This document shows positions 6,288 through 13,654 of a stretch of 34,920 bases of DNA, piece after piece. The notes under the pieces are model-generated. The model searched no databases and had not been told where the DNA came from. It was given only the letters and a program-made list of their open reading frames with translations. The DNA is from an uncultured Paraglaciecola sp. (GTDB lineage: Bacteria; Pseudomonadota; Gammaproteobacteria; Enterobacterales; Alteromonadaceae). Each line of letters begins with the position of its first letter. The stretch's first letter is position 1. Position numbers and translations under genes: made by a program. The stretch covers positions 1 to 34,920 of the forward strand of contig NZ_CAJWCF010000050.1 of NCBI RefSeq assembly GCF_913020055.1, given 5' to 3'.

Positions 6288-8900
6288 CTAAGCAATATTA
6301 AGCGCTGGAATAATATTCGATTTTGCAGCTTCTTCGGCTTTTTTGAATGCGTCCATACGGTCGAAATTTAAGTATTTAAACACTTCAGCTGACATAGACT
6401 CAATCTTACTGGCATAAGACATATATTCTTGTGTAGAAGGGATTTTCCCCATAATCGCGCCTACAGCGGCTAGTTCAGCTGAACACAAATACACATTTGC
6501 ACCGTCACCTAATCGGTTAGGGAAGTTGCGCGTAGAAGTAGAAAGCACGGTTGAATTGGCCTCAACCCTTGCTTGGTTACCCATACAAAGTGAACAACCA
6601 GACATCTCAAGACGTACGCCGGCTTTAGCATAAATATCGTAGTAACCTTCTTCAGTTAACTGAGCCTGATCCATTTTGGTCGGTGGAGACATCCATAAAC
6701 GGGTTGGCAATGTGCCTTCAAATTGTTGTAACAACTTACCTGCAGCGCGGAAGTGCCCGATGTTAGTCATACAAGAACCAATAAAGACTTCATCAATTTT
6801 GTTACCTGCTACGTCTGATAAGGTTTTGGCATCATCAGGGTCGTTCGGGCAACATAAAATCGGTTCTTTAATCTCCGTTAAATCAATTTCGATTGTTTCA
6901 ACATATTCTGCATCAGCATCTGCTTGCATCAATTCAGGTTTGGCTAACCACTCTTCCATCTTACGCGCACGGCGTTCTAATGTGCGAGCATCACCGTAAC
7001 CTTCGTTAATCATCCAACGTAACATAGTGATGTTAGAGTTGAGGTACTCAGCGATAGACTCATCAGACAGTTTGATAGTACAACCCGCTGCCGAACGCTC
7101 GGCTGAGGCATCAGACAGCTCAAACGCTTGCTCTACAGTTAAGTCGCTCAAACCTTCGATTTCTAAAATTCGGCCAGAGAAGGCGTTTACTTTACCTTTT
7201 TTAGCAACGGTTAATAAACCTTGCTTGATACCGTATAAAGGAATGGCATGCACCAAGTCACGTAAGGTGATACCTGGCTGCATTTCACCTTTAAAACGTA
7301 CCAAGATGGATTCAGGCATATCAAGTGGCATAACACCTGTGGCTGCAGCAAACGCCACTAATCCAGAACCCGCAGGGAATGAAATACCTAAAGGGAAACG
7401 GGTATGAGAATCGCCACCTGTACCCACAGTATCAGGCAACAACATACGGTTTAACCACGAGTGAATAATTCCGTCACCGGCAAGTAGCGATACACCACCA
7501 CGGTTCATAATGAAATCTGGCAAGGTATGCTGAGTTTCAATATCGATAGGTTTTGGATAAGCGGCTGTATGACAGAACGATTGCATGGTTAAGTCAGCAG
7601 TAAAGCCTAAACAGGCTAAGTCTTTAAGCTCATCACGGGTCATAGGACCGGTTGTATCTTGTGAGCCAACGGTGGTCATTTTAGGTTCGCAGTATGTACC
7701 AGGGCGAATACCGTCTACGCCACATGCACGGCCAACCATTTTTTGCGCTAACGTATAACCTTTACCTGTATCAGTAGGTTGGTAAGGCTTGCGGAATAAA
7801 TCAGATGGCCCTAGCCCAAGCGACTCACGGGCTTTTTCAGTTAAGCCGCGACCAATGATTAGGTTAATACGGCCACCAGCGCGCACTTCGTCAAGTAAGA
7901 CATCAGACTTGTATTGATATTCAGCTAATACTTCGCCAGTTGTTGAATTAGTAATTTTGCCTTCCAGTGGGAAGATATCAATTACGTCACCCATGTTCAT
8001 TTTTTCAACGTCGGCTTCAAATACTAACGCCCCTGCATCTTCCATGGTGTTATAGAAAATCGGCGCTACTTTACTGCCAATACAAATACCGCCACCACGT
8101 TTGTTAGGTACACCGGGTAAATCTTCACCAAAAAACCATAAAACAGAGTTAGTGGCTGACTTACGTGATGACCCAGTGCCTAAAACGTCCCCCACAAAAG
8201 CAACCGGATGTCCTTTGGCTTTTATCTCTTCAATTTGTTTGAGTGGCCCTACTTCACCGTGTTTTTCAGGGGTTAAACCATCCCGGGTCATTTTAAATGC
8301 AGCCCGGGCGTGTAAAGGGATATCGGGGCGAGACCATGCATCAGGTGCAGGAGACAAATCATCAGTATTGGTTTCGCCCGTCACCTTAAATACTGTAGCA
8401 GTGATTTTTTCTGGCATGTCTGCTCGAGAGGTAAACCATTCAGCATCAGACCAAGACTCGATAATGTCTTTTGCATAAGCATTACCAGCTTTTGCTTTTT
8501 CTTCTACATCATGGAAAGCATCAAACATTAACAATGTATGTTTAAGTTCTTCAGCAGCCAATTCAGCTAAGTCTGGGTTATCAAGAGCCGCAACTAAGGT
8601 GACGATGTTATATCCACCGTGCATGTTACCTAACAATTGAATGGCCGCATCTTTAGAAATCAAAGGAGAAGTGGCTTGGTCTTCAATAATTGCGGTCAGA
8701 AAACCGGCTTTAACATAAGCGGCCTCATCCACTCCTGGGGGAACCCGCTCTGATAGTAATTCTAATAATGTTTGTTCTTCACCAGCTGGTGGTGTTTTTA
8801 ACAACTCGACTAAATCAGCAACTTGCTCTGCATTAAGCGGTTTAGGTGGAATACTTTCTGCAGAGCGTTCTGCAACATGTTTACGATAGGCTTCTAACAC
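6288..8900 (-). CDS. acnB: Bifunctional aconitate hydratase B / 2-methylisocitrate dehydratase
   Basis: The 870-aa protein matches E. coli AcnB (865 aa) end to end: N-terminal HEAT-like domain, then the swivel domain (VTGETNTDDLSPAPDAWSRP, GTGSSRKSATNSVLWF), then the catalytic core with GSQDTTGPMTRDEL, QSFCHTAAYPKP and GTGGDSHTRFPLG. The [4Fe-4S] cysteines lie in GSCMTN and CSLCMGNQAR. It interconverts citrate and isocitrate, and can dehydrate 2-methylisocitrate in propionate metabolism, which fits the valine genes nearby. The start is a GTG at 8900: homologues begin at VLEAYRKHVAERSAE, and a GAGGG ribosome-binding sequence lies 8 nt upstream. An ORF extension to 8963 is not used. It is followed by its own terminator and is therefore probably monocistronic. 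Confidence 0.97.
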   Translation of the reverse strand: MLEAYRKHVAERSAESIPPKPLNAEQVADLVELLKTPPAGEEQTLLELLSERVPPGVDEAAYVKAGFLTAIIEDQATSPLISKDAAIQLLGNMHGGYNIVTLVAALDNPDLAELAAEELKHTLLMFDAFHDVEEKAKAGNAYAKDIIESWSDAEWFTSRADMPEKITATVFKVTGETNTDDLSPAPDAWSRPDIPLHARAAFKMTRDGLTPEKHGEVGPLKQIEEIKAKGHPVAFVGDVLGTGSSRKSATNSVLWFFGEDLPGVPNKRGGGICIGSKVAPIFYNTMEDAGALVFEADVEKMNMGDVIDIFPLEGKITNSTTGEVLAEYQYKSDVLLDEVRAGGRINLIIGRGLTEKARESLGLGPSDLFRKPYQPTDTGKGYTLAQKMVGRACGVDGIRPGTYCEPKMTTVGSQDTTGPMTRDELKDLACLGFTADLTMQSFCHTAAYPKPIDIETQHTLPDFIMNRGGVSLLAGDGIIHSWLNRMLLPDTVGTGGDSHTRFPLGISFPAGSGLVAFAAATGVMPLDMPESILVRFKGEMQPGITLRDLVHAIPLYGIKQGLLTVAKKGKVNAFSGRILEIEGLSDLTVEQAFELSDASAERSAAGCTIKLSDESIAEYLNSNITMLRWMINEGYGDARTLERRARKMEEWLAKPELMQADADAEYVETIEIDLTEIKEPILCCPNDPDDAKTLSDVAGNKIDEVFIGSCMTNIGHFRAAGKLLQQFEGTLPTRLWMSPPTKMDQAQLTEEGYYDIYAKAGVRLEMSGCSLCMGNQARVEANSTVLSTSTRNFPNRLGDGANVYLCSAELAAVGAIMGKIPSTQEYMSYASKIESMSAEVFKYLNFDRMDAFKKAEEAAKSNIIPALNIA

Positions 8901-8996
8901 AATATAACCCTCTAAATTGACCCCGAAAAATTCACAATATCTGGAGTGTAGGAATGTAACCATACAAGTATAAGGGTTATTAGCAAAAAGTTAAAT
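8901..8996 (-). promoter_or_regulatory. acnB promoter and 5' leader (copy A of a duplicated region)
   Basis: This stretch upstream of the acnB GTG contains a -10-like TATACT (plus positions 8967-8972) and a weak -35-like TTAACT with a 16-bp spacer. It also holds a block GGGGTCAATTTAGAGG (8909-8924) containing the ribosome-binding sequence. The same elements, in the same order and at nearly the same distances, recur at 12157-12254. The block 8964-8991 matches 12223-12250 with one mismatch in 28, and 8909-8924 matches 12165-12180 with one mismatch in 16. Conservation of these parts while the linkers diverge supports real regulatory function. Confidence 0.65.
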
Positions 8997-9103
8997 TGGC
9001 TGAGTTGCTCAAGTATTCTCGAACTACTTCGTTATGGAATTTTTATCTGGCGATACTGCGACGTGTATTTTTGGATAACTGAATGAGGATGTAAAAACAA
9101 AGG

Positions 9104-9139
9104 TAAAGTAAAACAAGCCGAGAGGCTTGTTTTACTTTA
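9104..9139 (-). terminator. Rho-independent terminator of the second aconitase gene
   Basis: A perfect 16-bp inverted repeat (arms 9104-9119 and 9124-9139, core ACAAGCC / GGCTTGT) with a GAGA loop lies 19 nt after the stop of the AcnB-like gene. On the minus strand the descending arm is T-rich. It separates this gene from acnB, so acnB needs its own promoter. Confidence 0.75.
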
Positions 9140-9158
9140 ATTTATGAAATGAGCTAAC

Positions 9159-11966
9159 TTAGCTAGGATCGGCAATTCTTACTGCAACGGCCGGTGCTGA
9201 TGTTAATTCATGAGTGGATGGAGCAAAATCAGTTAGGTTAATACCTTTAACCGCAGCTGTATACTCATCCATTGAAGGGAAGCGACCAAGCATGCTTGAA
9301 AGCACAACCAATGGTGTAGAACCCAGTAGTGATTCACCTTTCTTCTCGGCTGAATCTGCTACAACACGACCTTGGAACAAGCGAGTTGAAGTAGCAATAA
9401 CGGTGTCACCTGGCTCAGCTTTTTCTTGGTTACCCATACATAAGTTACAACCAGGGCGTTCTAGGTACATGATATTTTCGTACTTAGTACGTGCTTCGTT
9501 TTTAGGCGATGCATCGTCAAATTCAAAGCCTGAATATTTCTGTAAAATTTCCCAGTCACCTTCAGCTTTAAGCTCATCAACAATGTTATATGTGGGTGGT
9601 GCTACCACTAATGGTGCTTTAAATTCAATTTTCCCATTTTGTTTTTCAATGTTACGGAACATTTGTGCAATGATTTGCATATCACCTTTATGCACCATAC
9701 AAGAACCAACAAACCCTAAATCAACTGATTTATCTTTGTAGTAAGATACAGGGCGAATAACGTCATGGGTGTAACGCTTAGATACGTCTTCGTTGTTTAC
9801 ATCTGGATCAGCAATCATTGGCTCGTTAATTAGATCTAAATCAACTACCACTTCTGCATAATACTTTGCATTGTTATCTGGTGTTAACGCTGGCGTAGTA
9901 CCTGACTGAATACCTTCAATACGCTTGTTAGCAATATCGATAAGTCCTTGCAGCGTTTTGGTGTGATTTTCCATACCTTTATCGATCATGATTTGGATAC
10001 GGCTCTTAGCAATTTCTAATGATGCAACTAAGGTATCATCCTCTGAGATACAGATTGAAGCTTTTGCTTTCATCTCTGCAGACCAGTCAGTGAAGGTAAA
10101 TGCTTGGTCAGCTAGTAAAGTACCAATATGTACTTCGATTACGCGGCCTTGGAAGACGTTTTCGCCACCAAATTGTTTAAGCATTTGCGCTTGAGTGGAA
10201 TGAACAACATCACGGAAATCCATGTAGCTTTTCATTTTACCTTTAAAGGTCACTTTTACAGACTCAGGAATTGGCATTGCCGCTTCACCTGTAGCAAGTG
10301 CTAAAGCTACTGTGCCGGAGTCAGCACCAAATGCGACACCTTTAGACATACGAGTGTGAGAGTCACCACCAATAATGATAGCGCGGTCGTCCACTGTGAG
10401 ATCATTCAATACTTTATGAATTACATCAGTCATTGCCGGATAAACACCTTTAGGATCACGTGCTGTGATAAGGCCAAAAGCGTTCATAAAACTCATCAAT
10501 TTAGGAATATTAGCTTTTGCTTTACTATCCCAAACTGAAGCCGTGTGACAACCAGATTGATAAGCACCATCAACGATTGGAGAAATAGTTGATGCAGCCA
10601 TTGCCTCAAGCTCTTGGCATGTCATTGGTCCTGTGGTGTCCTGAGAACCAACAATATTGACTTTAACACGCACATCCGAACCTGCGTGTAATGCACTTTT
10701 AGAGGTTACACCAACAGCATTTCTATTAAAGATTTTTTCAACTGCGGTTAAACCTTGGCCTTCAATTGAGGTTTCTTTTGCAAGTGCAAATACTGCCGGA
10801 GCGTCTACACCTAAGGCTTCAGCAGCGAATGTTTGCAGTTTTTTACCAAATACCACAGCGTAAGAACCACCAGCTTTCATGAATTCTACTTTTTGCGGGG
10901 TAAAGGCTGACGATATATCAGCCAGCTCTTGGCTGCCGTTGAATAACTTCTTGGCTTTAGTATCAATAGTTAATACTGTTCCAGTTGCGACTGAGTAGGC
11001 TTCTTCTAGGACTGTATCGCCATTTTCGTCAACCACTGTATTGCCATTTGCATCGACTTTCTTAACCCAGTTTTTAAGATCAAGACCAATACCGCCGGTG
11101 ACATCAACCGTGGTTAAGAATATGGGAGAAATACCATTTGTACCCGCTACCACTGGTGCAATGTTTATAAATGGTACATATGGACTGGCTTGCTTACCGG
11201 CCCACAGTGCTACGTTATTCACACCAGACATACGAGATGAACCGACACCCATAGTGCCTTTTTCGGCGATTAACATCACTTTCGCGTTAGGATGTTGAGC
11301 TTGTAACGCTTGAATTTCTTTTTGCGCTTCTGGCGTGATCATACATTGGCCGTGTAATTCACGATCTGCACGAGAATGAGCTTGATGACCAGGTGATAAT
11401 AAGTCAGTTGAAATATCACCTTCACCCGCTATATAAGTCACCACTTCAATTTTTTCAGCTACTTCAGGTAATTTTGTAAAGAATTCAGCTTGGGCGTAAC
11501 TTTCTAATAAATCTTCAGCAACCGCATTGCCTGCTTTTAAAGCAGCTTCAAGGCGAGCTGTATCAGCGTCGTATAAAAACACTTGAGTTTTTAGTACGTC
11601 AGATGCTTTAGCAGCTAGTGCAGTATCGTCACCTAATGCAAGGTCAAGTAACACTTCGATTGAAGGGCCGCCTTTCATATGTGATAACAATTCAAAAGCA
11701 AATTCGACTGATATTTCAGCAACAATCGCTTCGCCAAGGATGATTTCCTTTAAGAATTTAGCTTTTTCACCGCCCGCACTGGTTGTTCCCGGCAAGGTGT
11801 TATAGATGAAGAAATTAAGCGACACTTCTCTGTGCTCATGAGCCGAGTCTTTAATTTGCTCGATAATTTCAGCTAATAGATCAGCGCTATCAATTGGCTT
11901 AGGTGCCAATCCCAAATTTTTCTTACGACTTTCAATTTCTTTTAAATATTCTACAAACAAACTCAT
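9159..11966 (-). CDS. Divergent AcnB-family aconitase (second aconitase B)
   Basis: The 935-aa protein has AcnB domain order (HEAT-like, swivel, core) but is clearly divergent from the acnB product next to it. Catalytic features are kept: GSQDTTGPMT, GGDSHTRMSKG, GSCMVHKGD and PGCNLCMGNQEKA with the three Fe-S cysteines. The swivel motif reads GDISTDLLSPGHQAHSR and the adjacent segment GTMGVGSSRMSGVNN, with an insertion around residues 290-330. From memory these match the AcnB of Bacteroidota rather than of gammaproteobacteria, which would mean horizontal acquisition. It probably catalyses citrate/isocitrate or 2-methylisocitrate chemistry. The ATG at 11966 is preferred over a GTG at 11972 because GAGAGG lies 5 nt upstream of it. 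A candidate acnB-type promoter lies 260 nt upstream. Confidence 0.92.
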   Translation of the reverse strand: MSLFVEYLKEIESRKKNLGLAPKPIDSADLLAEIIEQIKDSAHEHREVSLNFFIYNTLPGTTSAGGEKAKFLKEIILGEAIVAEISVEFAFELLSHMKGGPSIEVLLDLALGDDTALAAKASDVLKTQVFLYDADTARLEAALKAGNAVAEDLLESYAQAEFFTKLPEVAEKIEVVTYIAGEGDISTDLLSPGHQAHSRADRELHGQCMITPEAQKEIQALQAQHPNAKVMLIAEKGTMGVGSSRMSGVNNVALWAGKQASPYVPFINIAPVVAGTNGISPIFLTTVDVTGGIGLDLKNWVKKVDANGNTVVDENGDTVLEEAYSVATGTVLTIDTKAKKLFNGSQELADISSAFTPQKVEFMKAGGSYAVVFGKKLQTFAAEALGVDAPAVFALAKETSIEGQGLTAVEKIFNRNAVGVTSKSALHAGSDVRVKVNIVGSQDTTGPMTCQELEAMAASTISPIVDGAYQSGCHTASVWDSKAKANIPKLMSFMNAFGLITARDPKGVYPAMTDVIHKVLNDLTVDDRAIIIGGDSHTRMSKGVAFGADSGTVALALATGEAAMPIPESVKVTFKGKMKSYMDFRDVVHSTQAQMLKQFGGENVFQGRVIEVHIGTLLADQAFTFTDWSAEMKAKASICISEDDTLVASLEIAKSRIQIMIDKGMENHTKTLQGLIDIANKRIEGIQSGTTPALTPDNNAKYYAEVVVDLDLINEPMIADPDVNNEDVSKRYTHDVIRPVSYYKDKSVDLGFVGSCMVHKGDMQIIAQMFRNIEKQNGKIEFKAPLVVAPPTYNIVDELKAEGDWEILQKYSGFEFDDASPKNEARTKYENIMYLERPGCNLCMGNQEKAEPGDTVIATSTRLFQGRVVADSAEKKGESLLGSTPLVVLSSMLGRFPSMDEYTAAVKGINLTDFAPSTHELTSAPAVAVRIADPS

Positions 11967-12084
11967 ATACACCTCTCAAGGGCTATAACAGACTACTAAA
12001 ACGATAATTAGCAGGATAAAATTTTTGTCGACAACTTATTGGATTTTCTATCCTTTAAGCTTCGTTTGGTAAAATAAGTAATAT

Positions 12085-12156
12085 TTACTTATGTGACTCA
12101 AAAGGAATAATCGCCGCTACACGCTTAAACACGTGTTTTTGATAGGTACCTAACAC
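12085..12156 (-). pseudogene. Relic of the acnB 5' end (23 codons, or a leader ORF)
   Basis: Read on the minus strand from a GTG at 12156, this encodes VLGTYQKHVFKRVAAIIPFE and ends in TAA at 12085. The acnB product starts VLEAYRKHVAERSAESIPPK. Ten of the first 18 residues match, at the same register, and the DNA is roughly 60 percent identical over the first 53 nt. The ribosome-binding sequence (TAGAGG) and the promoter region upstream also match acnB. I read it as the truncated start of a former acnB copy. It could also be translated as a short leader peptide 118 nt before the AcnB-like gene. Confidence 0.75.
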
Positions 12157-12254
12157 GATTAATTCCTCTAGATTGACCCCTAACCATAACTACTAGTGTT
12201 TGGAGTTCTGGAATGAAACCGCACAAGTATAAGGGTTATTAACAAAAAGTGGAA
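12157..12254 (-). promoter_or_regulatory. Second copy of the acnB promoter and leader (copy B)
   Basis: This copy has the conserved block 12223-12250 with -10-like TATACT (plus positions 12226-12231), the intermediate block near 12200-12220 (TGGAGT..TGGAATG.AACC on the plus strand), and GGGGTCAATCTAGAGG (12165-12180) before the relic GTG. It lies upstream of the AcnB-like gene on the same strand, so it is the best promoter candidate for that gene. No terminator is seen between it and 11966. The -35 region (TCCACT at a 16-bp spacer) is weak in this copy. Confidence 0.65.
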
Positions 12255-12349
12255 TTGTGTAGAGTATTTGTTTATCTATAATCAGTATTCATTTAAGTTA
12301 TAAGTTACTGAAATTTACAGTTTTTTAACAAAATAAACACTGAGTCGAG

Positions 12350-13471
12350 CTAATCGGGCACAACTCGAAGTACTTTACCTTGAGCGCTATCAGTTAATAT
12401 ATAAATAGAACCATCAGGGTGAACACGAACATCTCGAATTCTTTGTCCTAGTTCTTTAAACAAAGAGACCTGTCCTAGCACTTTCATATCGTCCATTTGC
12501 ACCCAACGTACTTCTTTAAATTTGAGCACGCTCACCAAAAAATCACCGTTGAGTGTTTTAAACATTTCACCAGAATGAACAGCCATACCTGAGGGTGCGA
12601 TCGACGGTGTCCAGTCTATAAACGGTTGCTGCATATTTGGATATTCGGTAAATGGGCTAATACGCCCACCAATATAATCTTTACCATAGGTGATGACAGG
12701 CCAACCGTAATTGACTCCTGCTTGAATAATATTTAGCTCATCCCCGCCGTCAGGACCATGTTCGTTAGAAAAAATAACGTCTCGCATGGGATCGTATAAA
12801 ATAGCTTGTGCGTTTCTGTGCCCATAACTGAACACATAGTTACTCAATGAATCCGCTTTTTCATTTAAAAATGGGTTGTTTGAGGGAATGCTCCCATCGT
12901 CATTAATCCGTATTACTTTACCAAGATGATTGTTAAGTCTTTGGGCATCCTCTCGATAATCGAACCCATCACCGCTGGTAATCAGTAATGTGTTGTCCGG
13001 TAAAAAAGTCATACGCCCAGCAAAATGTACTGGGGTATCTTTATAGGGGCTAACAGTAAAAATGGTTTGTTGCTGAATAAGCTGATTACCATTTAACTTA
13101 GCTCGCATAACCTGCAAAGCGTTTTTGTCATCTGTACCAACAACATAGGATAAATATAACCAACCATTGGTTTGATAGTTAGGATGTAGCACCAAATCCA
13201 ACACCCCGCCTTGCCCTTTCACATAAATATTTTTTGGCAGTCCAGCGAGGGGCTCTGAAACATCATTTTTACTGACTATTCTGATTTGACCTGTGCGCTC
13301 AGTAACCAGTAAATTACCATCAGGTAAAAATGCTAATGACCAAGGAAAGTTTAAATCTTCGGCGATGGTTTCGATTTCATAACTTGGAAAGGATAACGCC
13401 TCTGCTTTCGCTGAACCTAATGACAAGATAAAGGCAAAAGTCAGACTATAAATAAAAACTCGAAAATGCAT
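12350..13471 (-). CDS. Periplasmic PQQ-dependent sugar dehydrogenase (YliI/Asd-like)
   Basis: The 373-aa protein has a signal peptide (hydrophobic stretch then SAKAEALSF), consistent with a periplasmic enzyme. The mature part is the glucose/sorbosone dehydrogenase six-bladed beta-propeller. Signatures are NFPWSLAFLPDGNLLVTERTG, GQGGVLDLVLHP, the catalytic-region HFAGRMTFLPDNTLLITSGD, then YSYGHRNAQ-type VFSYGHRNAQAI, EHGPDGGDELNII and NYGWPVITYG. Its length equals that of E. coli YliI, a PQQ-dependent aldose sugar dehydrogenase. Substrate and actual PQQ use are not shown by sequence alone, and no PQQ synthesis genes are nearby. It is transcribed towards the aconitase region with no clear terminator, so some read-through there is possible. 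Confidence 0.88.
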   Translation of the reverse strand: MHFRVFIYSLTFAFILSLGSAKAEALSFPSYEIETIAEDLNFPWSLAFLPDGNLLVTERTGQIRIVSKNDVSEPLAGLPKNIYVKGQGGVLDLVLHPNYQTNGWLYLSYVVGTDDKNALQVMRAKLNGNQLIQQQTIFTVSPYKDTPVHFAGRMTFLPDNTLLITSGDGFDYREDAQRLNNHLGKVIRINDDGSIPSNNPFLNEKADSLSNYVFSYGHRNAQAILYDPMRDVIFSNEHGPDGGDELNIIQAGVNYGWPVITYGKDYIGGRISPFTEYPNMQQPFIDWTPSIAPSGMAVHSGEMFKTLNGDFLVSVLKFKEVRWVQMDDMKVLGQVSLFKELGQRIRDVRVHPDGSIYILTDSAQGKVLRVVPD

Positions 13472-13654
13472 AACTTGCTCGCTTATGGACAGTAAAAAAA
13501 TTCACACCAAAATATCTCAAACTCTTTTGAATACAACACGTTGAGACGATATGGTTACAAACTTCAATTAGTAACTGAGTTGATCTTAGTTCACAGTTAA
13601 CGCATGATTGCCTAGTTCCTAGATCAATGCAATTGCCCAAATTAAGCGACTCAT

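Follow-up and report, generated by a model that had tools for sequence, protein, structure and literature searches.

Probable displacement in situ of acnB by a divergent aconitase gene, with takeover of the resident promoter, in Paraglaciecola

Introduction

Gene displacement in situ, which is reportedly described by Omelchenko et al. 2003, brings a homologue of other descent into the place of a resident gene while the neighbouring genes remain unchanged, and the usual grounds for inferring gene displacement are trees and gene order, with no further evidence. The locus analysed in the current study fits this description and differs from it in two respects: the resident left its promoter and first codons behind, and it was first displaced rather than lost, the stages of the process surviving in sister species. 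The term itself is used in PMC2783167, which has Omelchenko et al. 2003 among its references. Concerning the locus itself, no report was found among the literature matches listed, which were judged by title and the start of the abstract and for which most subscription journals lay outside the scope.

A second general concept that bears on the locus is promoter capture, or regulatory switching. Here too a gene would come under the promoter of a resident locus, with the difference that the captured promoter derives from a gene of the same presumed enzymatic role, so that regulation may be inherited together with the job. The enzyme concerned, here termed AcnL, matches AcnB (bifunctional aconitate hydratase 2; TIGR00117, PDB 1L5J) over nearly its full length and with the cysteine motifs kept, but is only approximately 35% identical to the resident AcnB and falls below the cut-off of the equivalog model TIGR00117 (361 bits versus 1287).

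Results

The window, that is the entire 34,920-nucleotide stretch of DNA that was analysed, is one contig, C50, of an incomplete genome that totals 4.6 Mb in 185 contigs (genome label G000). On its minus strand a PQQ-dehydrogenase-like gene (hereafter the PQQ gene) is followed by AcnL, acnB, a gene that we take to be DUF192-like, and an aspartokinase gene (aspK). The relevant features are the following, with changes per column where these were calculated.

12350-13471, minus strand: PQQ-dehydrogenase-like gene
12270-12305, minus strand: upstream element of the putative ancestral acnB regulatory region, kept before AcnL (0.28 changes per column)
12225-12257, minus strand: putative relic acnB promoter core with a weak -35 (0.36 changes per column)
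12226-12231, minus strand: -10 box TATACT of the relic promoter core
12157-12224, minus strand: relic acnB leader, unconstrained (1.15 changes per column)
12085-12156, minus strand: relic acnB N-terminal codons, a GTG frame of 23 codons of which approximately 18 are alignable
12014-12079, minus strand: AcnL's own upstream/promoter region, decayed in the window's lineage
11993-12014, minus strand: hairpin in the 5' leader of AcnL, conserved across AcnL genes from other genera
9159-11966, minus strand: AcnL, a divergent AcnB-type aconitase, intact (NF006690, 953 bits; cut-off 782)
9104-9139, minus strand: terminator-like site after AcnL (16-bp stem, T-rich tail)
8967-8994, minus strand: promoter-like site of the displaced, intact acnB (TTAACT-16-TATACT)
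6288-8900, minus strand: intact acnB, displaced copy, GTG start assigned by homology (TIGR00117, 1490 bits)

The terminator-like stem occupies the interval between AcnL and acnB, which suggests that acnB uses a promoter of its own. AcnL can be aligned with E. coli AcnB (1L5J) over residues 7-914. It keeps the motifs GSCM and PGCxLCMG, whose cysteines presumably hold the Fe-S cluster, and it scores above the cut-off of the AcnB family NF006690. Proteins of Flavobacterium and Chryseobacterium are 80-81% identical to AcnL, and among 196 genomes sampled from the family, 67 are listed with an AcnL of nearly full length (79-100% identical).

The leader hairpin lies approximately 30 nt ahead of the AcnL start codon. 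In an alignment of 25 AcnL leaders from several genera (25 of 39, the 14 omitted being near-duplicates or having misplaced starts or long or odd leaders), 91.4% of cells are paired and two-sided changes occur in four of the seven pairs. The window's own leader folds no better overall than its shuffles (z -0.92), and a comparison of 8000-13600 with Rfam gave no match to any known family (E up to 1). As a candidate DNA operator, the hairpin pattern was searched genome-wide with at most two mismatches and gave 57 sites per strand versus 23 in a reversed control; the pattern had an 8-base spacer and most leaders have one of 9, so that these counts carry little weight. The hairpin is possibly an uncharacterised cis-regulatory RNA element.

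An earlier note on this DNA, made from the sequence alone, had claimed that the region just upstream of acnB recurs ahead of AcnL, and this was borne out: positions 12085-12344 are a second copy of the acnB promoter, leader and first codons. The two blocks on which the claim was based match as described (8964-8991 and 12223-12250 at 27 of 28 bases, 8909-8924 and 12165-12180 at 15 of 16), they stand in the same order with gaps of 39 and 42 nt, and the two acnB 5' copies are direct repeats approximately 3.2 kb apart. Local alignment of the two upstream regions scored 144, a value to be compared with at most 71 in 2000 dinucleotide shuffles. The GTG frame that had been read as an acnB N-terminus was recovered as well, VLGTYQKHVFKRVAAIIPFESHK* spanning 12156-12085 with 23 codons and then a stop, as was the intact second aconitase behind it, the ATG of AcnL being located at 11966, 118 nt beyond the relic frame. 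In the window the relic can be recognised as AcnB-like up to about codon 18, while the relics of G002 and G012 extend to acnB codon 40-41.

The search for AcnL covered 22 genomes of the genus, of which five contain both AcnL and acnB, six AcnL alone and 11 acnB alone. The PQQ gene is followed by acnB in G003, G007, G016 and G018, whereas the order PQQ-AcnL-acnB-DUF192-aspK is found in G000, G002, G004, G012 and G013, and PQQ-AcnL-DUF192-aspK in G019 and G020, the latter with an extra gene between AcnL and DUF192. The newcomer consequently occupies the resident's place, PQQ-AcnL-(acnB)-DUF192-aspK standing against PQQ-acnB-DUF192-aspK. BLASTN with acnB 5' regions returned matches ahead of AcnL for each of the seven PQQ-linked genomes and for none of the remaining four. 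The earlier note would have been refuted by a lack of similarity in related genomes, and the similarity is present in every PQQ-linked AcnL locus; the note's simplest reading, that an acnB copy once stood here, was lost except for its 5' end and left a promoter that now drives the second aconitase, fits these comparative data.

The seven loci, when aligned, have a common structure consisting of the upstream element, promoter, leader, up to 40-41 acnB codons and AcnL's own upstream sequence, of which approximately 110 bp is recognisable, and this common junction argues for a single event. Since homology of the relic extends back in the direction of the PQQ gene just as in G003, the relic represents the original acnB 5' end and, judged by this alignment, the intact downstream acnB is the displaced copy. 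The duplicated 5' segment measures approximately 250 bp (247 bp in G002, 249 bp in G012 and 265 bp in G013, the left limit being set by eye). The resident gene is reduced to a 5' relic at its old place, and in the window the displaced acnB remains intact; acnB is absent from G019 and G020, in which the terminator after AcnL is kept and homology restarts in the region downstream of acnB.

A small lipoprotein-like gene was observed between acnB and DUF192 in G000, G002, G004, G012 and G018. By eye, this gene likewise comes after AcnL in G001, G008, G015 and G021, which have AcnL alone, so that AcnL would be in acnB's place there too.

Tandem duplication of acnB, followed by replacement of most of the first copy with AcnL, would likewise leave the 5' end of one acnB before AcnL and an intact acnB after it, with the same takeover of the promoter. 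The spacer that separates AcnL from acnB in G012 does contain a weak match to approximately the last 19 nt of acnB (89% over 19 nt, E 0.009, as one hit in 16 queries against five spacers), but apart from this match no convincing acnB 3' remnant was found in the five spacers by tblastn or blastn, tblastn with six acnB proteins giving one C-terminal match, on the opposite strand, at E 0.69. This variant of the route is a possible one, on which we place limited weight, insertion of AcnL with a partial duplication being preferred.

The earlier note had offered as an alternative that the 23-codon ORF is functional, which would make it a leader peptide or attenuator controlling AcnL, and a GTG start with an open frame behind a plausible ribosome-binding site is indeed present in the window. 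However, the ORF is deleted in two of the seven genomes, G004 and G020, where the relic leader is also mostly deleted, and its start or frame is broken in G012, G013 and G019, so that the frame is not conserved across the relatives. In pairwise comparisons of G002, G012 and G013 the relic ORF differs at all codon positions (21/10/12, 15/12/10 and 14/6/9 differences at positions 1/2/3, of 40), while the matching codons of intact acnB differ almost only at the third (2/0/14, 3/0/16 and 1/0/11 in the same pairs). A role as leader peptide is thus highly improbable.

The relic promoter and the upstream element behave differently. Parsimony over five taxa gave 0.28 changes per column in the element and 0.36 in the promoter core as against 1.15 in the relic leader and 1.07 in the relic ORF, approximately three to four times fewer, with core and element limits picked after the alignment had been viewed. 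The blocks of the earlier note were fixed beforehand, and the first of these (12223-12250) yielded 0.46, compared with 1.12 for leader and ORF together (permutation p = 1.4e-4). The second (12165-12180) shows no special conservation in the relatives (0.94 versus 1.12, p = 0.26, leader and ORF in this comparison including the block itself). The mean difference between these genomes is 0.17 in the promoter core and 0.14 in the upstream element, compared to 0.44 at four-fold sites of three housekeeping genes. TATACT or TATAAT is present in all seven relics. The relic -35 is weak, and the relic promoter site of the window is absent from the list produced by a consensus promoter scan, which performed at chance level (7 hits versus 9.4 in shuffles).

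With regard to the upstream element, local scores against acnB upstream regions were 54 for G003, 42 for G018, 34 for G007 and 26 for the outgroup G016 with the G013 relic element, its own copy scoring 72; it stands out clearly in the first two of these genomes, less so in G007, and is weakly recognisable in G016. Before the window's displaced acnB it is not recognisable (local score 18 versus 72 for its own copy). The window's intact acnB accordingly possesses a core without a recognisable element, and AcnL would hold the more complete ancestral control region. In the outgroup G018 the element (12270-12305 in the window) has, by eye, the look of an inverted repeat, TTATCACTA..TAGTGATTA.

It could be argued that gene conversion between the two copies, being direct repeats, keeps the relic promoter acnB-like. 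Against this, the relic cores of G000 and G002 differ at 1 of 33 sites, the two relics resemble each other more closely than either resembles the acnB in its genome, and both share CCAC where their acnB copies differ (by eye). Furthermore, G019 and G020 have retained the relic promoter and have no acnB, so that it is there neither serving acnB nor copied from it. Gene conversion consequently has next to no likelihood as an explanation, and the degree of conservation indicates that the resident acnB promoter is kept by selection.

Whether the likeness to acnB is merely historical, AcnL being driven by a promoter of its own, bears on the fate of AcnL's own upstream region. In G000, G002 and G004 the relic promoter plus element varies in 4 of 69 columns and AcnL's own region in 23 of 64 (p = 2e-5); in G012, G013 and G019 the corresponding values are 10 of 69 and 5 of 65 (p = 0.28), and the contrast between the two groups is significant (Fisher p = 0.0015). 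The conserved own upstream region of the latter three genomes, where it is intact beside the relic promoter, would favour the historical reading, as would the weak relic -35. However, the relic promoter and element change more slowly than the adjoining relic sequence by the factor given above, and AcnL's own promoter region has decayed in three genomes of the window's lineage (G000, G002, G004) and been deleted in a fourth (G020). In G020 the relic ORF, the leader and the promoter region belonging to AcnL have all been cut out, so that the acnB promoter directly adjoins the hairpin and ribosome-binding leader of AcnL. G012, G013 and G019 contain the GGTAAACT (GGTA) motif that belongs to AcnL's own promoter region, and G000, G002, G004 and G020 lack it; since 42 of 98 surveyed AcnL loci also lack it, its absence alone is weak evidence. 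We regard the historical reading as unlikely, and conservation suggests that the acnB-derived promoter now probably drives AcnL.

The acnB tree agrees largely with the species tree (gyrA+rpoB+leuS, with rpoB missing in G000 and gyrA or leuS partial in G012 and G014). G003 is without AcnL yet nested with G019, G012 and G013 (support 1.00 from all sites and 0.53 when the data are restricted to codon positions 1+2), and it is paired with G000 in the PQQ tree (1.00) and the g13655 tree (0.97), against the species tree; these conflicts indicate that the locus has recombined. G003 was considered as proof of loop-out of AcnL, but exchange of the locus is equally possible there, given the weak support at positions 1+2 and the PQQ/g13655 pairing.

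The AcnL tree mixes genera and splits the genus of the window. AcnL of G012, G013 and G019 is on a long branch, being 80-82% identical to that of the window and less similar to it than the genes of several other genera, which may reflect faster evolution or another origin.

A comparable outcome was found in a second lineage, the family of 42_54_T18, of which 15 genomes were examined. Ten of these have an acnB of full or nearly full length, and in G210-G213 AcnL stands in acnB's stead, preceded by a broken acnB 5' end that reaches codon 67-72. This end lies 37-45 nt before AcnL in the three loci measured (L237, L241 and L242), with the same pattern in G213, which leaves no space for AcnL's own promoter region. 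Promoter alignment with the acnB of relatives is loose in this lineage, so that promoter takeover is putative there. L242 (G212) also carries acnB fragments on the opposite strand, approximately 520-1200 nt upstream of AcnL, with 77-82% identity to AcnB of the window, which points to decay of acnB near AcnL on more than one occasion.

A wider scan for relics covered 98 of 108 further AcnL loci, ten being missed by the length and motif filter and some genomes occurring twice. Same-strand acnB 5' relics were detected only in L223 (= G013), L237, L241 and L242, by a protein-level scan that misses relics as short as the window's own. Another recurrent pairing of the two enzymes was noted in 24 of the 98 loci (L075, L078, L089, L093 and others), where an acnB start lies head to head with AcnL at a distance of 260-1046 nt. 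In L219, with AcnL and acnB in tandem, the best local match between the two upstream regions is 9 bases.

Discussion

Based on the comparison of these genomes, we consider it likely that this locus arose by gene displacement in situ and that the newcomer took over the resident promoter. The ancestral order would have been PQQ gene, acnB, lipoprotein gene, DUF192 and aspartokinase. AcnL, probably foreign and carrying at least approximately 110 bp of its own upstream sequence, would have entered just after acnB codon 40-41, with duplication of approximately 250 bp of the acnB 5' region, which would have left a complete acnB with its promoter downstream. Gene order, junction and duplication can be read from the aligned sequences; for the recombination route and the foreign origin of AcnL we rely on inference. 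The stranded acnB codons would then have decayed freely, the acnB promoter and upstream element remaining under selection. The promoter region that AcnL had brought along underwent decay or deletion in the lineage of the window, and its role probably passed to the promoter derived from acnB, transcription being deduced from conservation; later, acnB would have been lost in G019 and G020, leaving AcnL alone.

More tentatively, and with considerable doubt on our part, the acnB locus of marine gammaproteobacteria may be an exchangeable aconitase slot, with repeated entry of Bacteroidota-like genes, promoter takeover, possible loop-out and enzyme switching. If so, AcnL would enter at the acnB 5' end and thereby gain acnB's promoter and regulation, and the flanking acnB 5' repeats would allow loss of AcnL by recombination, possibly in G003.

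The kind of event described here is already known, and its preserved stages together with the second occurrence make this locus a good test case. In sister species AcnL's own promoter is found intact beside the old one, decayed or deleted, and the old enzyme is found lost. Given these surviving stages and the like outcome in a second lineage, the handover of regulation by a displaced gene of central metabolism becomes testable.
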